DNA of 64,000 nt from Rhizobium sp. EC-SD404. GTDB lineage: Bacteria > Pseudomonadota > Alphaproteobacteria > Rhizobiales > Rhizobiaceae. Location: NCBI RefSeq assembly GCF_902498825.1, contig NZ_LR701459.1, forward strand, positions 2,589,890 to 2,653,889, read 5' to 3'. The notes under the pieces were generated by a model. That model made no database searches, had not been told where the DNA came from, and saw nothing but the letters and a program-made list of their open reading frames with translations. Below, one piece after another: positions 19,562 through 58,211 of this stretch (position 1 is its first letter; each line of letters opens with the position of its first letter). The position numbers and the translations under genes are program-made.

Positions 19562-20182
19562 ATGACCGTTCAAGACTTGCTGCTGGTCTATGCTGCCTAC
19601 GTCATCGCAGTGGCTAGCCCTGGCCCGAGCAACATGGCCATCATGAACGCAGCGATGCGTCACGGCCGTCGTTCCGGTCTCGCCATGGCCGCTGGCGTTA
19701 TTACGATGTCGGCGATCTGGGGCACGATTGCCGCAACAGGTGTTTCGGCTCTTCTGACCACCTATGCCAATGCCGTGACGATCCTAAAGGTTGGAGGTGC
19801 GCTCTACCTGCTGTGGCTCGCCTGGAAGGCGGCACGATCGGCAGCCACCCCGGACAAGGAAATGGATCAGAGGGTATGGGCCGCGCCGAATGCTTGGAGC
19901 TCCTATCGGCGCGGTGTGCTCATGCATATCGGCAACCCAAAAGCTGTTCTCGCCTGGCTCGCGATCATGTCCCTTGGGGTTGACCAGGCGGCCAGGCCTG
20001 CCGCCGTCGCGGTTGCGCTAATCGGCTGCATCATCCTCGGCGTCATTGTCTTTTCCGGCTACGCGCTTTTGTTCTCAACGGCTCCGATGGTGAAGGCCTA
20101 TGCAAGGGCGAGGCGCTGGTTTGAAGGTGTGCTTGCCGTTTTCTTTGCCGCAGCCGGCCTCCGGCTGCTCTTTTCAAGATGA
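19562..20182 (+). CDS. LysE/RhtB family amino-acid exporter
   Basis: A 206-residue member of the same LysE superfamily as its neighbour but of the RhtB branch, shown by YVIAVASPGPSNMAIMNAAM (the ASPGP motif), a central GVLMHIGNPKAVLAWLA and six hydrophobic segments. RhtB-type proteins export neutral amino acids such as homoserine and threonine. The frame is open from 19532, but ATG at 19562 begins the conserved sequence and lies eight bases after the lysE stop, so the pair is surely co-transcribed. The presence of both branches side by side suggests a broad exporter set under the ArgP-like regulator. Confidence 0.88.
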   Translation: MTVQDLLLVYAAYVIAVASPGPSNMAIMNAAMRHGRRSGLAMAAGVITMSAIWGTIAATGVSALLTTYANAVTILKVGGALYLLWLAWKAARSAATPDKEMDQRVWAAPNAWSSYRRGVLMHIGNPKAVLAWLAIMSLGVDQAARPAAVAVALIGCIILGVIVFSGYALLFSTAPMVKAYARARRWFEGVLAVFFAAAGLRLLFSR

Positions 20183-20198
20183 TCGCCAAGGCTCAGAA

Positions 20199-21098
20199 AT
20201 GCTCAAGTCTTCACCGTTTCACGGACTATCCGCCTTTCCAATCACCCCGGCTGATAAGGATGGGCGCGTCGATACCGATGTCTTGTCGCGGCTGCTGGAA
20301 CGGCTCTGCGAAGCAAGAGTGGATTCCATTGGTCTTCTCGGCTCGACCGGCATCTATGCGTATCTGACCCGCGAGGAGCGGCGGCGCGCGATCGAGGCGG
20401 CCGTCGAGTGTGTGCGAGGTCGAGTGCCGATTGTTGTCGGGGTGGGCGCGCTCCGCACAGATGAAGCGCAACGTCTCGCCCGGGATGCAGAGGCAGCAGG
20501 CGCCGACGCTCTGCTGATGGCGCCGATGTCTTACACTCCGCTCACGCAGAATGAGGCCTATGAGCACTACCGGGCTGTCACGGAGGCGTCCGGTTTGCCA
20601 CTTTGCATCTACAACAATCCCGGCACGACCCATTTCAACTTCAGCCTGGACCTCCTGGCCAGCCTCTCCAGCCTGCCATCGATCAAGGCCGTAAAAATGC
20701 CGCTGCCGTCTGATGGCGACTTCGCCTCCGAAATCGCGACGCTACGCGAACGAATGGATCTTGCGATCGGCTACAGCGGAGACTGGGGAATGGCAGATGC
20801 AATGTTGGCAGGTGCAGACGCCTTCTACAGCGTCCTTGGCGGCACGCTGCCTCGTCCAGTCTTGTCGATGGTGAGAGCCGCGCAGGCTGGCAATGCCGAT
20901 GAAGCGCGGAAGATTGACGCATTGCTCGCGCCTTTGTGGGACACCTTCAAGGCCTATGGCAGCCTTCGGGTCATGTACGTGCTGGCCGAACTGATGGGAC
21001 GAGGGAGACTGGTTCCACCTCGGCCCGTTCTCCCACTTGAGGGAGAGTCCCGGAAAGAAGTTATAGCGGCTATCGATCCCTTGCTGGCGATTGGATGA
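20199..21098 (+). CDS. Dihydrodipicolinate synthase family protein (DapA/NanA-like aldolase)
   Basis: A 299-residue class I aldolase. Family marks are the N-terminal FPITPADKDGRVD, the substrate loop GSTGIYAYLTREERR (in place of GTTGE...L), the catalytic Tyr in YNNPG and the Schiff-base Lys in AVKMPLPS. The altered loop and the context make it unlikely to be the housekeeping lysine enzyme; members with such changes act on other 2-oxo acids. A longer open frame reaches back to 20100 inside the exporter gene; ATG at 20199 is where the family begins. It follows the RhtB-type gene by 16 bases and completes a lysE-rhtB-dapA-like operon. Confidence 0.85.
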   Translation: MLKSSPFHGLSAFPITPADKDGRVDTDVLSRLLERLCEARVDSIGLLGSTGIYAYLTREERRRAIEAAVECVRGRVPIVVGVGALRTDEAQRLARDAEAAGADALLMAPMSYTPLTQNEAYEHYRAVTEASGLPLCIYNNPGTTHFNFSLDLLASLSSLPSIKAVKMPLPSDGDFASEIATLRERMDLAIGYSGDWGMADAMLAGADAFYSVLGGTLPRPVLSMVRAAQAGNADEARKIDALLAPLWDTFKAYGSLRVMYVLAELMGRGRLVPPRPVLPLEGESRKEVIAAIDPLLAIG

Positions 21099-21389
21099 CG
21101 TCCGCACATTTATTTGGCGCGTTCAGCCTATGGCAACTTTCAGGGCGAGTAGCCGAGAGGTTCAACGGCCGAAACGGGGTCGAAAGCGGTCACAACAGCC
21201 TCGGCGCCAGTAAACAGGCGCCCACCCCATTCAGCCCCCATTCACGTCCATTCCGTTAACAATTCCTCAAGGTCTCAACGGTCACGCCCGCGTGATCGGA
21301 GGCGTTTTCGGGAACTATCTGTCGCTTGCGACCGTTTCAGTCTCGAAATCAACGATAACTGCACGTCAAGAATCGCAGTGAGGTACGTC

Positions 21390-21941
21390 ATGAAAACCTT
21401 TTTGAAAGCCGCCGCCTTCGTCGTGGGCATGCTGGGCGCCGGTAGCGCGCTGGCCCAGTCGGCGCTGGTCATCACCGATCTTAATTTGCGCGCCGGTCCG
21501 GGCACCGGCTACCAGTCCGTCGGCGTCCTGCCGAACGGATCGGTCGTCAACATTGCCGGCTGCACCTCGGGCTATTCCTGGTGCCGCGTGAACTATCAGG
21601 GCTATGACGGCTGGGCCTCGTCCCGTTATCTCGCCCAGCAGGAAGGCCGTTATGCCGGCGGCGGCAATTTCTCGTCGTCCGCTGCGTCCATCGGCATCCC
21701 GCTGATCGCCGGCGTTGTCATCGGCAGCGCGCTCAGCAACAACGACCGCGACTACCGCCGTCCGGACCGCTACGACCGCCGCGACTGGCGTGCCGATCGT
21801 CGTGACTGGCGCCGCGAAGCCCGCCGTGACTGGCGTGACGATCGCCGCGATGACCGTCGCGACTGGCGCAACGACCGTCGTGGGAACGATACGATCCGCC
21901 GTCTGCGCAGCAACGAGCCGTTCCGCTTCCAGACCGACTGA
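21390..21941 (+). CDS. Secreted SH3b-domain protein with Arg/Asp-rich tail
   Basis: A 183-residue protein with a signal peptide (MKTFLKAAAFVVGMLGAGSALAQ; cleavage after ALA, residues quoted in part). Residues about 25-85 form a bacterial SH3 domain (LNLRAGPGTGYQSVGVLPNG, CTSGYSWCRVNYQGYDGWAS) with two cysteines. A hydrophobic Gly-rich segment follows, then a C-terminal run of repeated DWR, DRR and DYRR units (residues about 115-165), strongly charged and probably extended. Such proteins sit in the periplasm and may bind peptidoglycan. A GTG four codons upstream could also start translation; ATG with AGG seven bases before is preferred. Confidence 0.83.
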   Translation: MKTFLKAAAFVVGMLGAGSALAQSALVITDLNLRAGPGTGYQSVGVLPNGSVVNIAGCTSGYSWCRVNYQGYDGWASSRYLAQQEGRYAGGGNFSSSAASIGIPLIAGVVIGSALSNNDRDYRRPDRYDRRDWRADRRDWRREARRDWRDDRRDDRRDWRNDRRGNDTIRRLRSNEPFRFQTD

Positions 21942-21992
21942 TCGAGCAGACCCTGATCGGGCCGACGCCTGATCTTTGAGTGCACGCAAGAG

Positions 21993-22020
21993 CGCGTCGT
22001 CCCCTTGGGGCGGCGCGTTT
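21993..22020 (+). terminator. Rho-independent terminator-like hairpin after the SH3 gene
   Basis: CGCGTCGTCCCC (21993-22004), TT, then GGGGCGGCGCG (22007-22017) pair with a single bulge and are followed by TTTTCTC. The position 52 bases after the SH3 gene stop fits a terminator. Confidence 0.7.
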
Positions 22021-22172
22021 TCTCGTTTCAGGGTTCCGGCATCGCACCACCCGCAATGCCGGGAGCACGCACACCGATCGCGAGAAGCGAAGCTTCCGAA
22101 AAGCCGTCATTCGGCCGGCCAAACCGGTGCGCTCCCCTTCCAATCGCCACAGACTCCGCCCATATTCCCCCC

Positions 22173-25466
<3,294 letters not shown>

Positions 25467-25928
25467 AACCAGCCGCGTTGCGCTACTCTCCCCCTTGCGG
25501 GGGAGATGTCGGTCCTGAGCTTGTCGAAGGGCCAACAGAGGGGGGGGCCTGTCCACTTGTCGGTTTCCTTGTGTGCCCCAAGCAACCAACCGAGGTGCCT
25601 GTCAGACGCCACCAGCAAGGCCCACCGCCCCCTCTTTCACCTGCGGTGACTCTAAGCGGAGAGTTGACCTGCCGCTTGGCCTGGTTCGGAAAACGAGCAT
25701 CGGCACCAATCTGCCGTCTCTTTAGATATGTAGGTTAACCGGATCCGATCTACGATAGCACCCGATCAAATCCGGAATTCGTCCAAATAGCGGACGGTGC
25801 AACGACAAAAACAGGCGCAATCTCGGCAATTGCATAACTCGCCCTTACGCGCCATAATTGCGACGCGCCGAGCTCCGACACCTTAGACTACAGTTTTGAG
25901 ATCGATATGCATAATACTCGGAGATAAA
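25467..25928. other. Gene-free junction with a REP-like element, entering AT-rich DNA
   Basis: After the uvrB stop there is a palindromic element at 25487-25549: TCTCCCCC-TTGC-GGGGGAGA followed by GTCGG, an inserted CCTGAGCTTGTCGAAGG and AGAGGGGGGG. Elements of this form are scattered between genes in many alphaproteobacteria. From about 25735 base composition shifts to AT-rich. No gene is supported between the element and the ATPase gene. Confidence 0.7.
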
Positions 25929-27318
25929 ATGCACATCAAACAAATATACGTTAGGGATCTTCACGGTATTTTTTCGAAAAGAATTCATTTTCACAAAGAT
26001 TATACATTTATTCATGGCATTAATGGCAGCGGAAAAACCAGCATACTTCGAGCTATGCAAGCGTCGTTGGCTCCAGATCTCGAATGGATCGCGTTAAATA
26101 AATTTTCTGTGATAGAAATACACGTTGAGAACGGGCCTAGCAAATTTCAGTTTAGATATGAGAAAGCCGATGGCGCAATTGTTTTAAAGATGCGCGTTGG
26201 AAACGACAGGTCGCGGGAAGACTACAGCACGGAAAAACTAGATTTCATAATAAATAATACGTCTCGAAGAGACGTCGATATGAAAAATGAACGCGATCTC
26301 GTTAAGCGTTATGTTTTTGGGCTCTTCGAAAACAGTAAGATATTAAAAATAATCCAAAGCATCCCTACCCCGACATTTCTCGGCCTGAACAGAACGTCAG
26401 AATCCTACACCGAAAATGACCAGAGCTTTTACGAGCGTCGAGTACGTGCGCATCCGAACCCTATTCTTGCTCCAACCTCCGAGGCCATGACCCAAGGACT
26501 TGGTCAAGCTCTCGATCTGATCTTCAGGAGATCCCGGATCATAATTCATCAACGGCGACAACTTGAGGACCAGCTTCGAAACAATATTTCGCTACTGCTT
26601 TTCTCGAGCAGTTCTACACAACGAGAAAAAAATTCAGATTGGCCGGAACAGAAAGACATTCTGAAGTATAGGAGGATGAAGAGAGAGATATCTTCCACCC
26701 TGACAAAGATTGGATTCGATAGCGAAAAGTCCAGATTTCAAATTGGAACTTTCTTTGATCGCATTATCGATCTCACGCGCAAACTCAATAGATACGATAA
26801 CTTTCAAACAGCCGCCCAAGAACTCTCTAAAACACCCAAGGGCATAGACTTTTTATATGAATGGTTTGAGCATCAGCCGTTGATTGGCCTGATAGAAAAT
26901 TACTTTAATCTTATTGACAATTTCAACAAGAAAGAAAGATCTCTACGTAGAGATTTGACAAAATTTGAGGTCATCGTAAATGAGTTTTTCAGCGATTCTC
27001 GAAAGAATGTGAAAATCGGCGAGTCGGGGGGAAGCAAAGATTTCAATTGGATCAAAGTATATAGATGTTCATAATCTCAGCTCTGGCGAAAAGCAAATAT
27101 TTGTCCTGATAAGTCACTTAATATTCAACCCCCTGATAAAAAAAGCCAATGTTTTGATAATAGATGAGCCGGAGATTTCATTGCACGTTCGGTGGCAGGA
27201 AATATTTGTTGAAAGCGTTTTGAATGCGAACGATCAAACTCAACTTATACTCGCTACCCACAGCCCTTCGATCGTATTGGACCGCACTGATAATATGGTC
27301 GATCTAAATGTCGCTTAA
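25929..27318 (+). pseudogene. AAA/ABC-type ATPase of a PARIS-like (AriA-like) defence system, frameshifted
   Basis: Read as one gene this encodes about 462 residues. The first part (stop at 27074 in the uncorrected frame) has Walker A GINGSGKTS near residue 27 in the usual SMC/OLD-like N-terminus (MHIKQIYVRDLHGI). The ABC signature LSSGEKQ, Walker B VLIIDEPEISLH and the ATHSPSI switch are only found in another frame up to 27318. The frames join cleanly if one base is removed from the six-G run at 27026-27031, giving SGEAKISIGSKYIDVHNLSSGEKQ (quoted in parts: KYIDVHNLSSGEKQ). GGAG six bases before ATG 25929 supports that start. The 3' end overlaps the DUF4435 gene by 11 bases. AT-rich composition marks recent transfer. 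Decay, phase variation or sequencing error are all possible. Confidence 0.75.
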
Positions 27319-28138
27319 GTACTCAGAAAGAGCTTCAGTGGGTTACGCCGCCCTTTACGCTTCACTGAACGAAAAAACAATATTTGTAGAAGACGCGAAG
27401 GGCCGCATAATCCATGAGAGAATAGTCGAATCGATCATCGGACCAGGTCGCGTGAGACGAATAATCCCGTTGAACGGGCGATTGCCGCTTCTCAAAGAGT
27501 GGGAGAAAAATAAGCTTAACGACAATAATCTATACATACTGGATGGAGACCTAAATCTTCTTTGGGGTGAAGAGGTGGATGGCACCAATATTGTCCAGAT
27601 AGACGCTTATTGCGTTGAGAATATAATCATTAACGAGTTAAATTTTCGAAAGTTACTCGAAGACTATGACTTAACTGAAACACAAACTGAGGAAATTATT
27701 ACCAGCATCAAGGTCTCAATTAGTGAGATTTCAGATAAATGCTTGGGACTGTTTATACTGTACGCAATTGCCTTTCGTATAAGAAAAATAAAGACAGTGA
27801 GCGACGGCATCCTACGATTTTGTAGTCAAATAAAAATTGAAAAAAATAGAGTCGATAAGCGAAAGAGAGAGCTTATAAGCGCGATAATAAAAGAAATTGG
27901 GTTTGAAAATTTCAAAAATCAAAAAGAGTTGATAAAAAATAACATCCTATCAAGCAGCATATCACGTGAGCGATTTATATCCGGTAAGGATTTTATTCTT
28001 CCGATGGTTCACAAGATTGTTGAGAGTAAAGCTGCTTACAAAGGGCCGTCAACGATATTGGCGCGGCAATTATCCCGACATGTCAGACCAAATGATGCGG
28101 GTAATTATCGGGATTTCATCCGCCGTCACTTTCCTTAA
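27308..28138 (+). CDS. DUF4435 (TOPRIM-like) protein, AriB-like partner of the ATPase
   Basis: A 276-residue protein matching the DUF4435 pattern: an N-terminal acidic motif in TIFVEDAKGRI (E28, D29), the LNGRLPLL segment, the acidic strand YILDGDLNLLWG and the conserved IDAYCVENIII, followed by a helical C-terminus. DUF4435 domains are related to the TOPRIM nuclease domain of OLD proteins; in PARIS, AriB is such a protein, held inactive by the ATPase AriA and released when a phage anti-restriction protein is sensed, then causing cell death. The gene starts 11 bases inside the ATPase gene, is as AT-rich as it, and is itself intact. The PARIS label is by architecture; other ATPase-DUF4435 systems exist. 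Confidence 0.72.
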   Translation: MSLKYSERASVGYAALYASLNEKTIFVEDAKGRIIHERIVESIIGPGRVRRIIPLNGRLPLLKEWEKNKLNDNNLYILDGDLNLLWGEEVDGTNIVQIDAYCVENIIINELNFRKLLEDYDLTETQTEEIITSIKVSISEISDKCLGLFILYAIAFRIRKIKTVSDGILRFCSQIKIEKNRVDKRKRELISAIIKEIGFENFKNQKELIKNNILSSSISRERFISGKDFILPMVHKIVESKAAYKGPSTILARQLSRHVRPNDAGNYRDFIRRHFP

Positions 28139-28669
28139 TCCCCCCAAAATTTTCCCCGTCCCTCGCGCCCATGCCATACTCCTCGCATCCTTCACCACGA
28201 CGGGATGGGACAGGTCGACGGTCCGGTTTCAGCGGTGAGGGACGGCGCTTCCGCCGGTGGCCAACGTAGCGGCCGGCTGGAGAGGTCCCAAAACGGCTCC
28301 CCCTGCCACTACGAGCAGGTTCGGCTGCGTGCCCGTGCAAGCGGGCCGACCGCATGCCCCCAGACAGGCGATGCGCCCGGGGGCGGTCGGATCCCGCGCA
28401 GAGAGCTGGAACCGGGATCTGACGGAGGATGCTCCCGAGAACGCCGCCGGGGCGCGATGACCGTGCCACTCGAACTACATCTACCCAGGCGGCTCGATCC
28501 TTGCGCCCCGGACCCGTCATCTCTGCCCTCTCCCCGCCGCGGCAAACCGCCCCGTCGGACGCCTTTCTGCGTCCGACAACGCCCATAAATCCCGGACGCA
28601 TTTCTGCGTCCGACAATGCCCAGAAGCCGGGTGCTGTTGCGCGTCCTGAAACATCAACGGAGATCCGCC
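28139..28669. other. Gene-poor junction with strong inverted repeats, possible structured RNA
   Basis: Composition returns to GC-rich here. The 531 bases hold no convincing gene. A long stem can form at 28341-28397: GCGGG-CCGACC-GC-AT-GCCCCC pairing with GGGGGC-GGTCGG-AT-CCCGC around an 17-base loop. Upstream, GGGAC at about 28239 can close on GTCCC at about 28289. At 28557-28585 and 28594-28622 lie two near-identical 29-base units, each GGACGC(C/A)TTTCTGCGTCC plus GACAA(C/T)GCCCA, a hairpin in tandem. Function unknown; an RNA gene or the end of the inserted island are both possible. Confidence 0.4.
28557..28622. repeat. Tandem hairpin repeat, two 29-base units
   Basis: The units at 28557-28585 and 28594-28622 differ at two positions and start 37 bases apart. 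Each contains GGACGC, a short loop and GCGTCC. They end just before a small hypothetical gene. Confidence 0.75.
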
Positions 28670-28993
28670 ATGCCGCGCAGCCACCATCCCGACAGGGACC
28701 GGTTCAAGTTCCGCCTCGCCTGCGCCACGGTCGACGAGCAATTGAACGCCATCGGCGCCACCATCGAGGCGATGGCGCGACGCCGGTGGCGTCCGCCCCC
28801 GGCCGAGGAGGCAAGGCGCTGCGACCTCGCCGCCTGCCGGCGTCACCGCGCCTGCCAGAGCGACGCCGTCCGCCGCGCCTGCGAGCGGATTCCGTTCGAA
28901 CGGGCCGAAGCGGCGCGGGTCGCAGCAATCCCCGGCGAATTCCCCTGGAACGTGATCTACCCGACCGAACCTAACGACGACGACGACGCCTGA
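28670..28993 (+). CDS. Small hypothetical Cys-containing protein
   Basis: A 107-residue frame from ATG 28670 (a longer frame starts at 28616). CGGAGATCCGCC precedes the ATG and provides GGAG. The protein has a helical, hydrophobic-poor N-terminal half (DEQLNAIGATIEAMARRRWR), then four cysteines in CDLAACRRHRACQSDAVRRAC (part quoted) and an acidic DDDDA end. Small proteins with a CRRxRxC core occur widely in Rhizobiales without known function. Support is composition and the ribosome-binding site only, so it may not be real. Confidence 0.45.
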   Translation: MPRSHHPDRDRFKFRLACATVDEQLNAIGATIEAMARRRWRPPPAEEARRCDLAACRRHRACQSDAVRRACERIPFERAEAARVAAIPGEFPWNVIYPTEPNDDDDA

Positions 28994-29117
28994 GGGCGAC
29001 ACCTAAGAACGAAGACCGGGGACGCGGGGGCGAGACCGCCGCCCCCTCTCCGGTCATACACCGGTCGCATTTGACGCCGCTCTTTATCGCACCACCGATC
29101 TCGCTTAAGCAGGGGCC

Positions 29118-29759
29118 ATGACCCTGATCAAGCGATCCCCCGCCCCTTCCCGACCCAAAGCCCTTCTCGTCGTCCTCCTCGCCGCCCTCGCCGGGCTGGC
29201 GCTCCTGCCGGCGCCCGCGCTTTCGCGGGACTGGCAGCCCTCCGAGCGCATCGAGACCTATGCGGTCACGGGCACGACGGGCATCGATCTCTACCGCTCC
29301 ATCGGCGAGCGCGCGCCGTCGGCCGGCGTCGGCCAGGCCATCGCCTTCACCGATTTCGAGCTTCTGTGGTCGCGCGATTACCGGCCGCAGCCGGATGGCT
29401 CCTGTATCCTCGCTTCCGCCCGGCCGAGCCTCACCATCATCTACCGCTGGCCGACAGCGCCTTCGGGCCTTGCGCCGGAAGTGGCGGCCAGTTGGGCCCG
29501 CTTCATCGAAGGCGTCGAAAAACACGAGCGCGTCCATGGCGACCACGTGATCGAGATGACCGAGAAGATCCAGGCCTTCTCCACCGGCCTGTCGGCGCCG
29601 GCCGATGCCGATTGCAACAAGGTCCGCGCCAAGCTCCAGGAATTCCTGGCCGGCATGGCGGCCGAGCGGCTGAACCGCGCCCGCACCTTCGACCGCGCCG
29701 AGATGGGCAATGGCGGCAACGTCCACCAGCTCATCCTCGCCCTCGTCAACGGTCCATGA
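29118..29759 (+). CDS. DUF922 family secreted zinc-protease-like protein
   Basis: A 213-residue protein with an N-terminal basic segment and a hydrophobic helix ending APALSRDW, a probable signal peptide. The mature part follows DUF922: ETYAVTGTTGIDLYRSIGER, a central WPTAPSGLAPEV, and the motif EKHERVHGDHV, in which HERVH is an HExxH zinc-binding helix. DUF922 members are predicted periplasmic metalloproteases. The gene precedes a CHAD gene by 10 bases on the same strand, so the two are probably co-transcribed. Activity is inferred from the motif. Confidence 0.82.
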   Translation: MTLIKRSPAPSRPKALLVVLLAALAGLALLPAPALSRDWQPSERIETYAVTGTTGIDLYRSIGERAPSAGVGQAIAFTDFELLWSRDYRPQPDGSCILASARPSLTIIYRWPTAPSGLAPEVAASWARFIEGVEKHERVHGDHVIEMTEKIQAFSTGLSAPADADCNKVRAKLQEFLAGMAAERLNRARTFDRAEMGNGGNVHQLILALVNGP

Positions 29760-29769
29760 GAGGCGCCCG

Positions 29770-30933
29770 ATGCCCTACCGCCTGACGCCCAAGGACAAGA
29801 GCTTCCAGGCGACCGTGCGCCGCATCGCCGGCGAACAGCTCGCCCGCGCCATCGAAGAAGCCCGTGCCGTCCCGCCGAACCCAGACGCCGGCCCGCACCC
29901 GGACCAGCAAGCCGGCGGCGCGGCCGCCACCGCCACGGAAGGCCTCACCGAACGCCAGCGCGTCCACCAGCTGCGCAAGCGCATCAAGAAGGTGCGCGGC
30001 CTCATCCGCATGGTCCGCCCCGCCTTTTCAGATTATGCCAAGGAGAATGCGGCGCTGCGCGATGTCGGCCGGTCGCTCGCGCCCCACCGCGAAGCCCAGT
30101 CGCTGATCGCCGCCTTCGATGCGCTCGTCGCCGCCTACCGGTCCGATCGCGCGCTTCCGCCGCTGCGCAGCCAGTCCGTCACCGCCCTTCGCCGCCGCCT
30201 CGTCGTTCCGCTTGTCGAAGAAACCGGCGCCGCCGCCCCGGTCATCGAAGCCGCCGCCACCGAACTCGCCGCCATCGCCGAACGCGCCCGCTCGTGGAAG
30301 ATCCGGCCGAAGGGCTCAAAAGCCTTCGCCCGCGGCCTCGCCGACACCCACAACGCCGCCCGCAAAGCCCGCGTCGATGCCCTGAAGGCGCTCGCCGCGA
30401 TCGAGGCCGGCCCGCCGTCGCCCGAAACCCAGGCGATCGAGAACCGGCAGCAATCCCGGTGGGACGGCGCCGAGACGCTGCACGAATGGCGCAAGCGCGT
30501 GAAGGCCCACGCCCAGCATCTGCGCATCCTCGCTCCCGTCTGGCCGGAAGCCGTCGGCCCCCAGGTCGATGCCGCCCGTGCGCTCGCCGAGGATCTCGGC
30601 CGCCACCACGATCTCGCTGAACTCGTCCGCGCGCTCGGCGACGACGCTCTCGGCCATCACCCGACCCGCGTCGCCCTCATCGATCTCGCTTATGCCCGCC
30701 AGGCCGCCATCGAGGCGACAGCCCTTGCCGCCGGCGCGCGGATCCTCGCCGAGAAATCGAAGCCCATGGCCGCCCGCCACCGCGCGCTCTACAAGCTCTG
30801 GAAGGCGGAAGACCGCAAAGCGGCACCCGGCAAGGCCGGCGAAACGCTTCCGGCCAGCCCCCCGCCCGTCAAGGGATGGTTCGCCGCCAAACCCAATGGC
30901 GGCAATAGCGGGAACGGCGACGCCGAGAGCTGA
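29770..30933 (+). CDS. CHAD domain protein
   Basis: A 387-residue all-helical protein with the conserved His pattern of CHAD domains: RVHQLRKRIKKVRGLIRMVRP near the N-terminus, HEWRKRVKAHAQHLRIL in the middle and DLGRHHDLAELV later. CHAD domains bind inorganic polyphosphate through these basic residues and occur at polyphosphate granules, often near CYTH phosphatases; no CYTH gene is nearby. The open frame reaches back into the DUF922 gene, but ATG at 29770 gives the natural start (MPYRLTPKD). It follows the DUF922 gene closely. Confidence 0.85.
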   Translation: MPYRLTPKDKSFQATVRRIAGEQLARAIEEARAVPPNPDAGPHPDQQAGGAAATATEGLTERQRVHQLRKRIKKVRGLIRMVRPAFSDYAKENAALRDVGRSLAPHREAQSLIAAFDALVAAYRSDRALPPLRSQSVTALRRRLVVPLVEETGAAAPVIEAAATELAAIAERARSWKIRPKGSKAFARGLADTHNAARKARVDALKALAAIEAGPPSPETQAIENRQQSRWDGAETLHEWRKRVKAHAQHLRILAPVWPEAVGPQVDAARALAEDLGRHHDLAELVRALGDDALGHHPTRVALIDLAYARQAAIEATALAAGARILAEKSKPMAARHRALYKLWKAEDRKAAPGKAGETLPASPPPVKGWFAAKPNGGNSGNGDAES

Positions 30934-31040
30934 CCGGTCAGCGCAAACGCCCGATCCATCACCAGAATTGATTTGTCGACAAAAGGGTGCAGGTCTAGCC
31001 AGAGCGCAACCCTCACTCGCTCCCGGTCCCGGTCCCGCAG

Positions 31041-31952
31041 ATGCCCTTTTCAGCCAATGTCCGCGGCGCGATCTTCATGTCGCTGGCCATGGCCGGTTTC
31101 CTGTTCAACGACACCGTCGTCAAGGTTCTCGCCGCCGACATGAATGTCGGCCAGGTCATGGCGCTGCGCGGCATCTTCGCCACCATCGCCATCACCGCGC
31201 TCGCCTGGTGGCGCCATGCGCTGCGGCCGATCCGAGTCGCCTTCCAGCCGATGATCCTGCTGCGCATCATCGGCGAGGTCGGCGGCACCGTCACCTTCCT
31301 CATCGCGCTCACGCACATCCCCATCGCCAACGCCTCTGCCATACTTCAGGCTCTGCCGCTCGCCGTCACCATGGGCGCGGCCCTGTTCCTGTCCGAGCCC
31401 GTCGGCTGGCGCCGCTGGAGCGCCATCGCCATCGGCTTTTGCGGCGTCATGCTGATCGTGCGGCCGGGCGTCGAAGGCTTCAGCTTCTATTCCATGCTGG
31501 TGCTCGGCACCGTCTTCTTCGCCGCCATGCGCGATCTGGCCACCCGCATGGTGCAGGCCGAGGTGCCGTCGCTCTTCCTGTCGGTGGTCACCTCCCCCAT
31601 CGTCGGCCTAACCGGCGTTATCATGGCCCCGATGATGGGCGGCTGGACCCCGGTCGATGCCGGCCATATCGGCCTCCTGGTTCTCTGCGCCGTCCTGCTC
31701 CTCATCGGCTACCAGTTCATCATCATGGCCATGCGCAGCGGCGACATCTCCTTCGTCGCTCCCTTTCGCTACACAAACCTGCTCTGGGCGATCCCCACCG
31801 GCTACCTCGTCTTCGGCGACGTTCCCGATGCCTATATGATCATCGGCGCAACGATCATCGTCGTCTCGGGCATCTACACCCTCTACCGGGAACGCAAGCG
31901 CCCCGAAGTCGACCCAGTGGCCGCGGAAACGGCAAAACAACCCTCGCCGTGA
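31041..31952 (+). CDS. DMT superfamily (EamA) transporter
   Basis: A 303-residue inner-membrane protein with ten hydrophobic segments arranged as two five-helix EamA repeats (first beginning FSANVRGAIFMSLAMAGFLFN, second with VLLLIGYQFIIMAMRSGDI). Typical of the group are ALRGIFATIAI after the second helix and FRYTNLLWAIPTGYLVFGD near the end. Family members export metabolites or amino acids; the substrate is unknown. No clear Shine-Dalgarno precedes the ATG. The MFS gene follows on the same strand after more than 40 bases and may be independent. Confidence 0.87.
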   Translation: MPFSANVRGAIFMSLAMAGFLFNDTVVKVLAADMNVGQVMALRGIFATIAITALAWWRHALRPIRVAFQPMILLRIIGEVGGTVTFLIALTHIPIANASAILQALPLAVTMGAALFLSEPVGWRRWSAIAIGFCGVMLIVRPGVEGFSFYSMLVLGTVFFAAMRDLATRMVQAEVPSLFLSVVTSPIVGLTGVIMAPMMGGWTPVDAGHIGLLVLCAVLLLIGYQFIIMAMRSGDISFVAPFRYTNLLWAIPTGYLVFGDVPDAYMIIGATIIVVSGIYTLYRERKRPEVDPVAAETAKQPSP

Positions 31953-32038
31953 GGCCAGGGAGACGACAAACAAAAAGCTAAGGCCACCTTTCCTTTTTGG
32001 TATCGATGCGCCAATTGGTCGGCGAAGGATATGTCCGC

Positions 32039-33268
32039 ATGCCACCTGCTCGCTTTCTCGATCCCCGCACCCCGCCGCACATCTTGACGCTGGTCCTCAT
32101 GGCGGCGCTCGGTGCGTTGAACATGAACGTCTTCCTGCCCTCGCTTCCGGGCATGGCGCGCTATTTCAACGCCGACTACGCGCTCGTTCAGCTGACCGTG
32201 TCCGCCTACCTCGCCGGCACCGCGTTTCTGCAGATCTTCATCGGCCCCTTGTCGGACAGGTTCGGCCGCCGCCCGGTCATGCTGGTCAGCATCTGGCTCT
32301 TTCTCGGCGCCACACTGATCTGCGTCTTCGCGCCGACGATCGAAATCCTGCTGATCGGCCGCGTGCTGCAGGCGGTCGTCGTCGCCGGCCTGGTGCTCTC
32401 GCGCGCGATCGTGCGCGACATCGTCGGCCCTTCGCAGGCTGCCTCCATGATCGGCTATGTGACGATGGGCATGACGCTGGTGCCGATGGTCGGCCCGGCA
32501 CTTGGCGGCTTTCTCGACCAGATGTTCGGCTGGCAGGCCAATTTCATCCTCACTTTCGTCTTCGGCGTCATGGTGCTGATCGTGTGCTGGCGCGACCTCG
32601 GCGAAACCAACCAGGCGATGTCCGCCAATTTCGCCCAGCAGTTCCGCGCCTATCCGGAGCTTTTGAAGGCTCGCCGGTTCTGGGGATACACGCTCACGGC
32701 AACGTTCGCTTCCGGCGCATTCTTCTCGTTCCTGGGTGGCGGTCCCTACGTGGCGAACGTCATTCTCGGCATGACCCCGGCCGAACTCGGCTACCACTTC
32801 TTCTTCATCGCCTTCGGCTACATGATCGGCAACTTTCTGACAGCGCGGTTCTCCGTCAATGTCGGGCTGAATGCCATGATGGTGATCGGCAATTTGATCT
32901 CCGCCCTCGGCATGGCGCTGTCGATCGCACTTTTCTGGTCGGGCTTCTTCCATCCGATGGCATTCTTCGGGCCGATCTTCTTCGTCGGCTTCGGCAACGG
33001 CATGGCGCTGCCCAATGCCAATGCCGGCATCGTCTCGGTCAAGCCACGCCTTGCCGGGTCGGCCTCCGGGCTCGGCGGCGCACTGATGATCGGCGGCGGC
33101 GCTTTGTTGTCTGTGCTGGCCGGTTCGCTTCTGTCCGAAGAGTCCGGCCCATATCCGCTGCTTTACGTCATGTTCTCTTCGTCTCTGGCAGGGGTCGCGG
33201 CGGCGCTTTACGTCCTCTATGTTGTGCGTCAGGACCGGTTGGCCGGCATCGTGATGGACGACGAGTAA
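32039..33268 (+). CDS. MFS drug-efflux transporter, Bcr/CflA type
   Basis: A 409-residue 12-helix major facilitator protein. The N-terminal LVLMAALGALNMNVFLPSLPGMARYF (part quoted) and the motif A segment GPLSDRFGRRPVML are those of the Bcr/CflA multidrug exporters (TIGR00710-type). AAGGA nine bases before ATG 32039 favours it; the frame can start earlier at 31997. The fdhD gene follows after 18 bases, so the transporter may be co-transcribed with the molybdenum-cofactor genes although no functional link is obvious. Confidence 0.88.
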   Translation: MPPARFLDPRTPPHILTLVLMAALGALNMNVFLPSLPGMARYFNADYALVQLTVSAYLAGTAFLQIFIGPLSDRFGRRPVMLVSIWLFLGATLICVFAPTIEILLIGRVLQAVVVAGLVLSRAIVRDIVGPSQAASMIGYVTMGMTLVPMVGPALGGFLDQMFGWQANFILTFVFGVMVLIVCWRDLGETNQAMSANFAQQFRAYPELLKARRFWGYTLTATFASGAFFSFLGGGPYVANVILGMTPAELGYHFFFIAFGYMIGNFLTARFSVNVGLNAMMVIGNLISALGMALSIALFWSGFFHPMAFFGPIFFVGFGNGMALPNANAGIVSVKPRLAGSASGLGGALMIGGGALLSVLAGSLLSEESGPYPLLYVMFSSSLAGVAAALYVLYVVRQDRLAGIVMDDE

Positions 33269-33286
33269 GGTCCGACGGAGAGTATT

Positions 33287-34180
33287 TTGACGGAACGTGA
33301 ATTCATCGTGCGGCCCGATCCGACCGATCAGCGGCTCTCGACGATCGTCGAGGGCATCGATCAGAACGGCGATGCCGTCGATACGCGGGTGGTGACCGAA
33401 AAGGCGCTGACGCTCTATCTCAACGCAAGGGAGATCGTCACCATGATGACGATCGGCGATCATCCGGACCTTTTGGCGCTCGGATATTTGCTCAATCAGA
33501 ACATGTTGAAGCCGACCGACCACGTCACCGGCATCGACTACGATGAAGAACTCGAAGTCGTCGTCGTGCGCACCGAGGAAGAGACCAACTACGAGGACAA
33601 GCTGAAGAAGAAGGTCCGCACCTCGGGCTGCGCCCAAGGCACGGTCTTTGGCGACATCATGGACAATCTGGACAGCATTTCATTGTCCAAGGATGCCCGG
33701 CTTCGCACATCGTGGCTCTATGCGCTGACGCACAAGATCAACACCGCTCCATCGCTCTACCTCGAGGCAGGCGCGATTCATGGCTGCGTGCTGTGTGCGG
33801 AAGACCGGCCGCTCGTTTACATGGAGGACGTCGGTCGTCACAACGCCGTCGACAAGATCGCCGGCTGGATGTTCCAGACGAACGAGGACCCGTCCGACAA
33901 GATCTTTTACACGACCGGTCGCCTTACGTCCGAGATGGTCATCAAGACCGCCATGATGGGCATCCCCATCCTGGTATCGCGTTCGGGCTTTACCGCCTGG
34001 GGTGTCGAACTCGCCCGCAAGATCGGCCTGACGCTCATCGGCCGTGCGCGCGGAAAGCGCTTCGTCGCACTGGCCGGTACCGAGCGCATCATCTTCGATC
34101 TCGATCCCGACAAGGTGCCGGATGAAGAGGGCCGATCCGGGCGCAAGGGCAGCCGACGCGAGATCGAGGCCGAAGCATGA
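33287..34180 (+). CDS. fdhD: FdhD, formate dehydrogenase accessory sulfurtransferase
   Basis: A 297-residue FdhD. In E. coli this protein transfers sulfur from IscS to the molybdenum cofactor before its insertion into formate dehydrogenase. Conserved elements are VRTSGCAQG with the active Cys (one Cys rather than the CxxC of E. coli), AGAIHGCVLC, EDVGRHNAVDK, TTGRLTSEMV and LVSRSGFTAWGVELA. It starts with TTG at 33287; GGAGAG six bases upstream supports this. Its stop overlaps the mobA start as ATGA, beginning a tight four-gene operon (fdhD-mobA-mobB-moeA). The formate dehydrogenase itself lies elsewhere. Confidence 0.95.
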   Translation: MTEREFIVRPDPTDQRLSTIVEGIDQNGDAVDTRVVTEKALTLYLNAREIVTMMTIGDHPDLLALGYLLNQNMLKPTDHVTGIDYDEELEVVVVRTEEETNYEDKLKKKVRTSGCAQGTVFGDIMDNLDSISLSKDARLRTSWLYALTHKINTAPSLYLEAGAIHGCVLCAEDRPLVYMEDVGRHNAVDKIAGWMFQTNEDPSDKIFYTTGRLTSEMVIKTAMMGIPILVSRSGFTAWGVELARKIGLTLIGRARGKRFVALAGTERIIFDLDPDKVPDEEGRSGRKGSRREIEAEA

Positions 34181-34824
34181 CCGGACCTTCCAGGAAGGAC
34201 ATCCTCGGCTGCGTTCTGGCAGGCGGTCTCTCACGGCGCATGGGTGGCGGCGACAAGGCGCTTTTGGAAATCCGTGGCGTCCCGATGCTGACCCGCGTAA
34301 TCGACCGGCTCAAACCCCAAGTGTCTTCGCTCGTTCTCAACGCCAATGGCGATGCAGGCCGCTTTGCGGAGTACGACCTTCCCGTCATCGCCGACACTGT
34401 CGGCGATTTCGCCGGCCCGCTCGCCGGGGTTCTTGCCGGCATGCGCCACGCGCAAACTGCGGACCAGTCGATCAGCCATGTCGCAACCGCGGCCAGCGAC
34501 ACGCCGTTCTTTCCCGTCGATCTGGTGGAGCGCTTCGCCGAAGTAACGACGACCGCCGACACGATCGCACTGGCAACGTCGGACGGCAATCGTCATCCCG
34601 TCTTCGGCCTGTGGCCCGTCGCACTCGCCGACGATCTCGAGACCTGGTTAAAAGAAAGCGACACCTTCAAGGTGCTCGCTTGGGTCCACCGCCACAGGCT
34701 GGCAACAGTGGACTTCGATTTGGTAAGACACGGCGAACACAGCTTCGATCCGTTCTTCAACGCCAACACGCCGGAAGATATGATTGCGGCGGAGACTTTC
34801 CTTCGGGAGCAGCAGATTTCATGA
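34177..34824 (+). CDS. mobA: MobA, molybdenum cofactor guanylyltransferase
   Basis: A 215-residue nucleotidyltransferase that joins GMP to Mo-molybdopterin, giving the bis-MGD cofactor used by DMSO-reductase family enzymes such as formate dehydrogenase. The N-terminal GTP-binding motif GCVLAGGLSRRMGGGDKALL is the family signature, and FAGPLAGVLAGM and ASDTPFFP follow in the expected order. The length is typical. Start and stop codons overlap those of fdhD and mobB by four bases, so translation is coupled. Confidence 0.94.
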   Translation: MTGPSRKDILGCVLAGGLSRRMGGGDKALLEIRGVPMLTRVIDRLKPQVSSLVLNANGDAGRFAEYDLPVIADTVGDFAGPLAGVLAGMRHAQTADQSISHVATAASDTPFFPVDLVERFAEVTTTADTIALATSDGNRHPVFGLWPVALADDLETWLKESDTFKVLAWVHRHRLATVDFDLVRHGEHSFDPFFNANTPEDMIAAETFLREQQIS

Positions 34825-35357
34825 CGAGACAGTCCCAACGCGTCTTTGGCGTCACCGGATGGAAGAATTCCGGCAAGACGGGCCTGACCGTGCGCATCGT
34901 CGAGGAACTGACCCGCAGAGGCTGGCGCATTTCCACCGTGAAACATGCCCATCACGAGTTCGATATCGACAAGGAAAACACGGACAGTTGGCGTCATCGC
35001 CAAGCCGGAGCCGGCGAAGTGGCCATCGTTTCCGGCAAGCGCTGGGCCCTTATGCATGAGTTGCGTCACGAATCCGAACCTGCGCTTGAAGACATTCTCG
35101 AGCGCCTGGCTCCTTGCGATCTCGTTGTGATCGAAGGCTACAAGCGCGAGAACCATCCGAAAATCGAAGCCCGGCGGCTGGATGCCGCCAACCGCGCGCC
35201 ACTGGCTGCTGCAGATCCCAACATCATCGCGATCGCTGCCGATCATCCGGTGTCCGAAGAACATCTGCCGGTCTTCGACCTGGACGACACCATCGGTATT
35301 TCCGATTTCATCGAGCGCGTCACGGGCCTGGCCGAGCGTCGGAGCGCTGCGTCATGA
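34821..35357 (+). CDS. mobB: MobB, molybdopterin-guanine dinucleotide adaptor
   Basis: A 178-residue GTP-binding protein that assists MobA. It has the P-loop GWKNSGKTGL directly after the start, the conserved STVKHAHHEFDID and DLVVIEGYKRENHPKIE. A much longer open frame reaches upstream to 34044 through mobA, but ATG 34821 overlaps the mobA stop as ATGA and begins the homologous region. It likewise overlaps moeA by four bases. Confidence 0.94.
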   Translation: MTRQSQRVFGVTGWKNSGKTGLTVRIVEELTRRGWRISTVKHAHHEFDIDKENTDSWRHRQAGAGEVAIVSGKRWALMHELRHESEPALEDILERLAPCDLVVIEGYKRENHPKIEARRLDAANRAPLAAADPNIIAIAADHPVSEEHLPVFDLDDTIGISDFIERVTGLAERRSAAS

Positions 35358-36640
35358 CCACGGGACGTCGGCTCCTCGACGATTGTTTTCTGCACGACCG
35401 AGACCGCATGCGGCATTCGGAGGTGCTCGCTTTGATCTCCGAGCGGCTCGCGCCCATCGTGCCGATGGAAATGGTGCCTCTGCGGGAGGCAGCCGGACGC
35501 ATTCTGGCCGAGCCGATCGCTGCCCCGCGCGATGTCCCCTTCTCCGACAATTCCGCAGTCGATGGCTATGCCTTCGCCTATGCCGACTACTTCAAGCGCA
35601 ATACGCTCGGTATCCGCACGCGCATCGCTGCCGGGGACCTTGCACCCGCCGAGATCGGCAGATCCGAAGCGGCACGCATCTTCACCGGGGCAGCGATGCC
35701 AGCCGGCGCGGACACCGTCGCCATGCAGGAAGATTGCGAGCTCTCGGAGGACGGTTCGACGGTCACCGTGCCGAAAGGTCTGAAGCCTGGTGCCAACCGA
35801 CGACGTGCCGGCGAGGACGTCGCGCAAGGATCAATCGCGATCGAGCCCGGCGTTCGGCTTCGCGCGCAGGATCTTGCCGCAATCGCGTCGTTCGGATTTG
35901 ACGAAGTGCCGGTCTGCCGTCGCCTGCGCATCGCCGTTTTGTCCACAGGCAACGAACTCGTGGAACCGGGCAGCGCCGATCCGTTTCAGCCTGGTCAGGT
36001 TTTCGACAGTAACCGGACGATGCTGGCCGCATTGGCGCAGACGATGCCGGTCGAGATCACCGATCTGGGCATCCTCAAGGACGACGCAGCTCTCATTGCC
36101 AGCACGATCGAAGATGCAGCCGGCACCCATGACGTGATCCTGAGCACAGGCGGCGCATCGCGTGGCGAGGAAGATCATGTGGTGACGACGCTCGATGCGC
36201 TCGGCAAGAGGCACCTGTGGCAGATCGCCGTCAAGCCCGGACGCCCCATGGTGGTGGGTCAAATCCAGACGGACCAGAGGGATTGCGTGTTCTTCGGCCT
36301 GCCTGGAAACCCTGTCGCGGTTCTCGTCTGCTTCCTGCTCTATGTCCGCCCCGCGCTGACGATTCTCGGTGGCGGCCAAGCGCTAGAGCCCGCCCGGTAT
36401 CATCTGCCCGCAGGTTTCCACATCGCGCGCAAAAAAACGGATCGCCGGGAATTCCTCCGCGGCTGGCTTGCCACCGGTGCCGACGGCATCTCCCGCGTCG
36501 AAAAATTTCCGCGCGACGGTTCGGGTCTCATCACGGGACTGCGGCAGGCGACCGGGCTGATCGAGTTGGATGAAGAGGTGAACGAGGTGCGCGTAGGCGA
36601 TCGCGTCGCATTTATTCCGTTCAACGAGTTCGGGCTTTGA
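35354..36640 (+). CDS. moeA: MoeA, molybdopterin molybdenumtransferase
   Basis: A 428-residue enzyme that inserts molybdate into adenylylated molybdopterin. Family marks include PFSDNSAVDGYAF, FTGAAMPAGADTV, RRAGEDV, LSTGNELVEPG, STGGASRGEEDHV, KPGRPMVVG and FGLPGNPVAVLV, in order, across the four MoeA domains. It closes the fdhD-mobA-mobB-moeA operon with an ATGA overlap. With these genes the cell can make and sulfurate bis-MGD for a formate dehydrogenase. Confidence 0.95.
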   Translation: MTTGRRLLDDCFLHDRDRMRHSEVLALISERLAPIVPMEMVPLREAAGRILAEPIAAPRDVPFSDNSAVDGYAFAYADYFKRNTLGIRTRIAAGDLAPAEIGRSEAARIFTGAAMPAGADTVAMQEDCELSEDGSTVTVPKGLKPGANRRRAGEDVAQGSIAIEPGVRLRAQDLAAIASFGFDEVPVCRRLRIAVLSTGNELVEPGSADPFQPGQVFDSNRTMLAALAQTMPVEITDLGILKDDAALIASTIEDAAGTHDVILSTGGASRGEEDHVVTTLDALGKRHLWQIAVKPGRPMVVGQIQTDQRDCVFFGLPGNPVAVLVCFLLYVRPALTILGGGQALEPARYHLPAGFHIARKKTDRREFLRGWLATGADGISRVEKFPRDGSGLITGLRQATGLIELDEEVNEVRVGDRVAFIPFNEFGL

Positions 36641-57915: not shown

Positions 57916-57971
57916 GTGTTGTCCTTTCGGGGCCCTCCGCCCCACCTTTGGGTCGTATATGCGGCTTTGCC

Positions 57972-58138
57972 GCGTGGCTGACGGCCGGTCTCCTGGCTCG
58001 GGACCAATCCCCTCCGCCTTCCCGATGCAAGAAGCACACCAGTGGCATGATGAAGGGGCGTCGTCCCTGACAGTCGCGGGGGCGGCGCCGGCTTTTCACC
58101 GGCTTCCCGTTTCACCTTGAAACTCAAGGCACCGTCGC
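57972..58138 (-). ncRNA. Cobalamin riboswitch
   Basis: On the minus strand the RNA shows the ordered conserved blocks of the B12 element: GGTGCC near 58130, GGTGAAACGGGAAGCCGGTG, CCCCCGCGACTGT, GGAAGGCGG and the B12 box GAGCCAGGAGACCGGCC near 57987-58003. It ends about 57 bases before the HupE-like gene, enough for a terminator or ribosome-binding-site sequestering stem. Binding of adenosylcobalamin should reduce expression of the permease. Confidence 0.92.
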
Positions 58139-58211
58139 AACGATTGGTGACAGCGGCTGCGATAAAACACAACCGGTGCCGATGCTCATTTCTTGAGCAA
58201 AAGCTGACGCT

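Follow-up and report, generated by a model that had tools for sequence, protein, structure and literature searches.

PARIS (phage anti-restriction-induced system) of Escherichia coli is a two-gene defence system in which the gene of the ATPase AriA is followed by that of the DUF4435 Toprim protein AriB (PDB 8ux9, 8v45-8v49). According to the portion of PMC9122126 that deals with these systems, they derive from P4-like satellites, and deletion of either ari gene is non-toxic and abolishes defence; PMC11455837 comments on the mechanism, and excerpts of PMC12409363 treat AriB. A single-gene form, AriAB, in which the two proteins are fused, also belongs to PARIS. The current work concerns a gene pair of this kind in Rhizobium sp. 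EC-SD404, located in a stretch of 64,000 nucleotides of contig NZ_LR701459.1 (hereafter the window). Family and fold assign the pair to PARIS; its ATPase gene is split between two reading frames. The slot that the pair occupies lies between uvrB and a structured RNA gene. By itself, the split pair adds a new and probably silent member to a system already known. The novelty lies in the setting, and what most deserves pursuit is the link of defence cargo with one side of a structured RNA gene.

The ATPase and DUF4435 genes

The pair lies in an insert (25929-28138) that an earlier reading of the DNA, here called the sequence-only reading, had described as AT-rich; its GC content is 0.403, and that of the window outside 25401-28150 is 0.629. 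The coding segments are the following:

25929-27074, + strand: N-terminal part of an AriA-like ATPase, an ATG-started open reading frame of 381 residues in a frame of its own
27034-27318, + strand: C-terminal part of the AriA-like ATPase, in another frame, with LSSGEKQ at 27076, Walker B and ATHSPS
27308-28138, + strand: AriB-like DUF4435 Toprim protein, intact in a single open frame of 276 residues

The N-terminal part, which the list of open reading frames starts at an upstream TTG (392 residues), carries the Walker A motif GINGSGKTS at 26016-26042. The C-terminal frame ends with the stop codon at 27316-27318, and the DUF4435 gene starts before this stop, with its ATG at 27308; the two genes overlap by 11 bases. 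In the DUF4435 gene (27308-28138), which had been called intact and is so, no break was seen, nor was any in the ATPase gene besides the frame change.

Under the published detection rule, as given in the same portion of PMC9122126, a PARIS ATPase scores 32 bits with AAA_15 or 27 bits with AAA_21 and is adjacent to a DUF4435 protein of 27 bits. The C-terminal part scores 62.7 bits with AAA_21 and 45 bits with AAA_15 in Pfam and is recognised as AriA by PADLOC (2.8e-22), and the overlapping gene encodes a protein with a DUF4435 score of 45.8 bits. Pfam matches in the N-terminal part are AAA_23 (4.2e-7) and AAA_15 (1.3e-5). The gene order is that of E. coli, and both folds match AriA and AriB best, the ATPase fold having been compared on an intact relative; the AriB fold is accompanied by the acidic Toprim-type residues. 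Sequence identity between the AriB-like protein and solved AriB is low, 13% over the aligned part, and sequence searches of the PDB with this protein and with its 21-row profile returned no AriB, which the fold comparison did find. Pfam, PADLOC and fold comparison support the AriA/AriB architecture that had been proposed. The E. coli pairs differ in that the ATPase gene is split here, the present pair is known from its genes alone, and it is carried by a 3.95 Mb rhizobial contig.

A related ABC-type ATPase head is found in PtuA of Septu and of retrons. The Septu reading was ruled out, as the partner in the window is a DUF4435 protein and not the HNH protein PtuB. AriA is preferred by the C-terminal part and by the fold of the intact relative.

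Several observations weigh against the PARIS assignment. The N-terminal part alone falls under the rule (AAA_15 25.4 bits for a cut-off of 32.1 bits, AAA_21 18.5 bits) and slightly prefers PtuA profiles over AriA (2.6e-9 vs 1.6e-8). Of the ATPase of the window itself, only pieces were tested, and the two genes are not both intact, the ATPase being split at 27019-27038. Lastly, the unbroken ATPases P0005-P0007 and the DUF4435 relatives were found in separate searches, and pairing was not seen among them; the ATPase-DUF4435 pairing was observed in the more distant locus L021 and, as a fusion, in L152.

A protein search at E 1e-5 returned two DUF4435 relatives besides the window's own, and a three-sequence profile returned 22 proteins, own included, at E 1e-3. 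DUF4435 is present in 10 of 199 Rhizobiaceae genomes, counting the own one and with 9 above the cut-off, and in neither of two genus mates, G001 and G002. With the ATPase profile, 3 of 385 genomes of the class were found at E 1e-20, again with the own genome included. No relative of the ATPase was confirmed in a collection of 84,980 species searched with two patterns (91 stretches; records near to the own one were possibly left out), and none was found in viral contigs.

The frame change in the ATPase gene

Three unbroken ATPases from public collections, P0005, P0006 and P0007 (462, 462 and 463 residues), are colinear with both pieces of the gene. When P0005 was used in tblastn (E 1.6e-131), its residues 1-370 matched one frame up to 27038 with 48% identity to the N-terminal piece, and residues 364-462 matched the next frame from 27019 with 74% identity to the C-terminal piece. 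The two matches overlap by 20 bases, and the frame change is thus located within this stretch:

27019-27038, + strand: frame-change stretch, shared by both tblastn matches of the unbroken P0005 and containing a run of six G at 27026-27031

The overlaps obtained with P0006 and P0007 are longer, and both include the G run. In the own genome, the ATPase family profile likewise matches in two pieces, the second, positions 356-463, being one frame on from the first, positions 1-369 (3.7e-52 and 4.8e-124). These comparisons with unbroken relatives bear out two earlier claims, that the Walker A half and the LSSGEKQ/Walker B half lie in different frames and that the break is at or beside the G run.

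A PARIS-type cassette in the slot between uvrB and the RNA gene, with an ATPase gene whose frame was changed at or beside the short G run, is the best explanation and, on the whole, a fairly probable one. The predicted roles are an ATPase sensor for the AriA-like protein and a Toprim nuclease for the AriB-like protein. The truncated ATPase would retain Walker A and lack the signature motif and Walker B, and so would not be able to form the ATPase head. In that case AriB would be neither kept in readiness nor set free; the cassette may be silent and harmless, by analogy with E. coli PARIS without ariA. The split ATPase gene is probably inactive. Since no further break was seen in either gene, the frame change is probably recent.

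It is less likely, though still worth weighing, that the assembly miscounts the G run and that the gene is intact in the cell. The position of the run inside the 20-base stretch, the lack of any second break and the preserved overlap with the next gene would all fit a miscount. To check the assembly for such errors, 400 kb of the own genome were compared with 400 kb of G001. Among the 264 G001 genes recognised in the own genome, 248 were in one frame, 4 were split over two frames and 12 were otherwise partial. None of the four splits had a G/C run of at least 5 within 30 bases (one had a T5), which argues against a miscount, as does the 3.95 Mb length of the contig, the assembly being hence not fragmentary. 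Inside the one-frame genes, 109 G/C runs of at least 5 were found, 9 of them of at least 6. Of 262 genes in the reverse comparison, 237 were in one frame, 22 were partial and 3 were split, one of these near a G5 and another near a T6. In these comparisons the assembly shows no habit of homopolymer-run errors, which does not settle a single site. What counts against a true frame change is that 0 of 9 longer runs broken still permits an error rate of up to about 28% per run (95% bound), that the assembly is the only source for the length of the run in living cells, that the closest intact relative, P0005, is just 48% identical in the N-terminal part, and that an intact copy of the ATPase-DUF4435 pair was not seen at the uvrB-RNA locus.

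Very improbable is the suggestion of the sequence-only reading that the G run is a reversible phase switch, toggling defence in the population. A break at or beside a homopolymer in an otherwise open locus would suit such a switch. Six is short for a contingency run, however, and 28 G/C runs of this length or longer occur in 400 kb of the own genome, including the 9 inside one-frame genes. The supposed need for switching, to avoid autoimmunity, is a weak argument in view of the non-toxic ari deletions reported in the cited portion of PMC9122126.

Least credible of all is continued production of the ATPase, whole or in two parts, through programmed frameshifting, transcript slippage or internal initiation. 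The good match of both parts to P0005 would speak for it, but P0005-P0007 are unbroken, the first frame has no stop codon at the break, and the C-terminal frame has no ATG, GTG or TTG from the stop at 27010 until TTG 27154, which is past the signature motif at 27076. Separate translation of the C-terminal part was ruled out by this lack of a start codon before the motif.

The slot between uvrB and the RNA gene

The split PARIS-type cassette is bordered by conserved DNA on both sides:

22005-25466, + strand: uvrB open reading frame, left border of the slot (mechanical TTG start; Pfam UvrB, UvrB_inter and UVR)
28153-28341, + strand: core of the structured RNA gene, right border of the slot (36 pairs; conservation of the DNA within the genus reaches about 28583)
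29118-29759, + strand: DUF922 gene, conserved right neighbour (DUF922 3.8e-33; 92-93% identical in both genus mates)

The comparison with the DNA of the genus mates covered 20000-36000. Identities of 88-95% extend from about 21220 through uvrB and resume at 28133 (G001) or 28148 (G002) to 36000; between these flanks, each genus mate has different AT-rich DNA. The uvrB open reading frame itself is 88.8% identical to that of G001 and 89.9% to that of G002 (to 24907, then in pieces to 25476). The stretch that opens the right border is 95% identical in both, against 88-90% in the flanking blocks.

Different defence systems occupy the place after uvrB, as in a defence hotspot: PARIS in the own genome (G000), a UG13a reverse transcriptase of the defence-associated reverse transcriptase (DRT) class in G001 (PADLOC 3.1e-194), a type III-A retron in G002 (PADLOC: reverse transcriptase 3.3e-100, PRTase 5.6e-59), and another retron in G004, which belongs to another genus. 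The last is type II-A by its NDT protein, its reverse transcriptase fitting II-A and III-A almost equally. In G020, uvrB and DUF922 are adjacent without AT-rich cargo, and no RNA match was obtained. It may be that cassettes in the slot are swapped between the conserved borders. The hotspots of P2-like phages and P4-like satellites, as presented in part of PMC9122126, similarly hold many alternative defence systems at one place; the present slot differs in lying between uvrB and a structured RNA gene, other copies of which seem to mark further sites.

Two smaller observations concern the slot and its left border. Between the DRT cargo of G001 and the RNA, a weak HNH-like open reading frame (L012 9133-9648; E 0.008, under the Pfam cut-off) may be left over from earlier cargo. 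In-frame direct repeats (GAPASAERSEKLKGGAN units; 25189-25352) occur in the C-terminal tail of the UvrB open reading frame, and this tail differs much among the three species.

The structured RNA and the DNA on its 5' side

None of the 4227 models of Rfam 15 matched 25400-28700 with E up to 1, and none matched at gathering score in seven other loci with RNA copies. The sole Rfam match of the window at gathering score is a cobalamin riboswitch at 57965-58151 on the - strand. A second copy of the RNA, 69-74% identical to that of the window, is present in the own genome (at G000:C18:3678853), G001, G002 and G004. The fold, built from eight copies, has 36 pairs in five helices over about 184 positions. 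Of 297 Rhizobiaceae genomes searched with a covariance model, 42, from 22 of 109 genera, have between one and seven copies each, 113 in total; the copy numbers are lower bounds, as at most eight candidates per genome were scored. In 289 genomes of the class, the model found copies in the own genome only (E 1e-5, stricter filters). No RNA stretch was found in plasmid records, and a single viral-contig stretch obtained with a degenerate RNA motif (L166) was rejected, not being backed by the model (best E 0.11). Among the open-licence papers listed in literature searches, no title or abstract on the RNA or its slots was found.

For closer analysis, 47 copies were taken, the eight used in building the model and 39 others; 40 had been picked by hand for high scores and multi-copy genomes, and L154, at a contig end, was dropped. 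Their median identity is 0.62, and in 27 of the 36 pairs both partners have changed. In this alignment, which was fitted to the RNA model and whose pair counts lean towards it, 93.5% of 1630 cells are paired, against 44-57% for slid versions, and 235 cells have changes in both partners, where shuffles average 68.6. In the eight building copies alone, 94.4% are paired (slid versions, 40-53%). Compensatory changes exceed both the shuffled and the slid controls, and this pattern points to an RNA gene; a structured DNA element seems to be the other option. The alpha-r14 / NfeR1 RNAs are also multi-copy RNA genes of Rhizobiaceae, as far as part of PMC7143759 describes them; alpha-r14 has three hairpins there, with an anti-Shine-Dalgarno motif unpaired in the loops, and differs in this from the five helices of the window RNA.

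AT-rich cargo was defined as at least 1.2 kb under 0.55 GC within 4 kb, a cut-off set after looking at the data. Such cargo was found on the 5' side of 15 of the 47 copies and on the 3' side of none. The eight building copies, which had first prompted the question, contribute 6 (5') and 0 (3'), and the 39 wider copies 9 and 0 (two-sided sign test 0.004). The copies of G000 and G001 linked to pnp, with 850 and 800 AT-rich bases, remain under the cut-off. For scale, 400 kb of the own genome contain one AT-rich stretch, that of the window, and 400 kb of G001 contain four. Open reading frames of 180-1100 residues within about 3.7 kb gave 71 PADLOC families for 90 frames on the 5' side and 3 for 111 on the 3' side (E 1e-15); families and not proteins are counted, and 25 of the 71 were listed. 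Broad profiles and candidate systems are included, and mad3 and WYL, two of the broad profiles, also match on the 3' side.

Two of these sites deserve separate entries:

L077 9174-10609 (G000:C18:3679174-3680609): pair of the cyclic-oligonucleotide-based anti-phage signalling system (CBASS) type at the second RNA copy of the own genome, found by PADLOC
L152 5719-7860 (G565, another genus): AriAB fusion, 140 bases 5' of an RNA copy (9.4e-203)

The first, 5' of the RNA copy that adjoins pnp, consists of a CD-NTase (4.1e-147) and a 2TM effector (7.1e-75). The second places PARIS beside the same RNA once more, as one fused gene where the window has two. Other 5' cargo was named by PADLOC as HEC-01 in G004, Septu in L148, a helicase in L126 and DpdB in L139, with a weak match in L129.

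These data lead us to propose, tentatively, that the RNA family marks one-sided defence slots. The DNA on its 5' side would be an uptake or exchange site for PARIS, DRT, retrons, CBASS, HEC-01 and Septu, and the RNA gene or its promoter would be an address or expression partner and not a bystander. Just as tentatively, the RNA may be a neutral neighbour, the slots being ordinary intergenic places that tolerate insertion, and the link with defence genes a matter of chance or shared history. In keeping with a neutral RNA, 30 of the 39 wider copies are under the AT-rich cut-off on the 5' side, the longest AT-rich stretch being at most 600 bases at 24 of the 39; DUF922 stands between cargo and RNA in G004; and most proteins of the 5' flanks resemble ordinary genes, the Pfam matches of the 5' set being mostly to ordinary families. 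No integrase appears among the 25 of 81 Pfam families listed for this set, and Pfam scans of cargo proteins revealed no recombinase. Neutrality is opposed by the one-sidedness itself, in cargo (15 vs 0 of 47 copies) and in PADLOC families (71 vs 3).

If the RNA does mark defence slots, a family without an Rfam match would serve as a sequence handle for unknown defence genes in Rhizobiaceae, and the choice of site by defence cassettes would become a testable question. The cargo scan of the wider copies comprised 14 proteins, to which 5 proteins of L078 and L079 were added. Cargo without a PADLOC match, as an example of material for such discovery, is found in L115, L116, L128 and L135, whose AT-rich 5' cargo proteins had no match at E 1e-5, and in L078 (9500-11709) and L079 (7619-8955), 5' of the RNA copies linked to pnp in G001 and G002. 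One protein of L115 has an ORC-CDC6-like Pfam match. A receiver-like domain is present in one of the L078 and L079 gene sets, and both sets are candidates for unknown defence systems.
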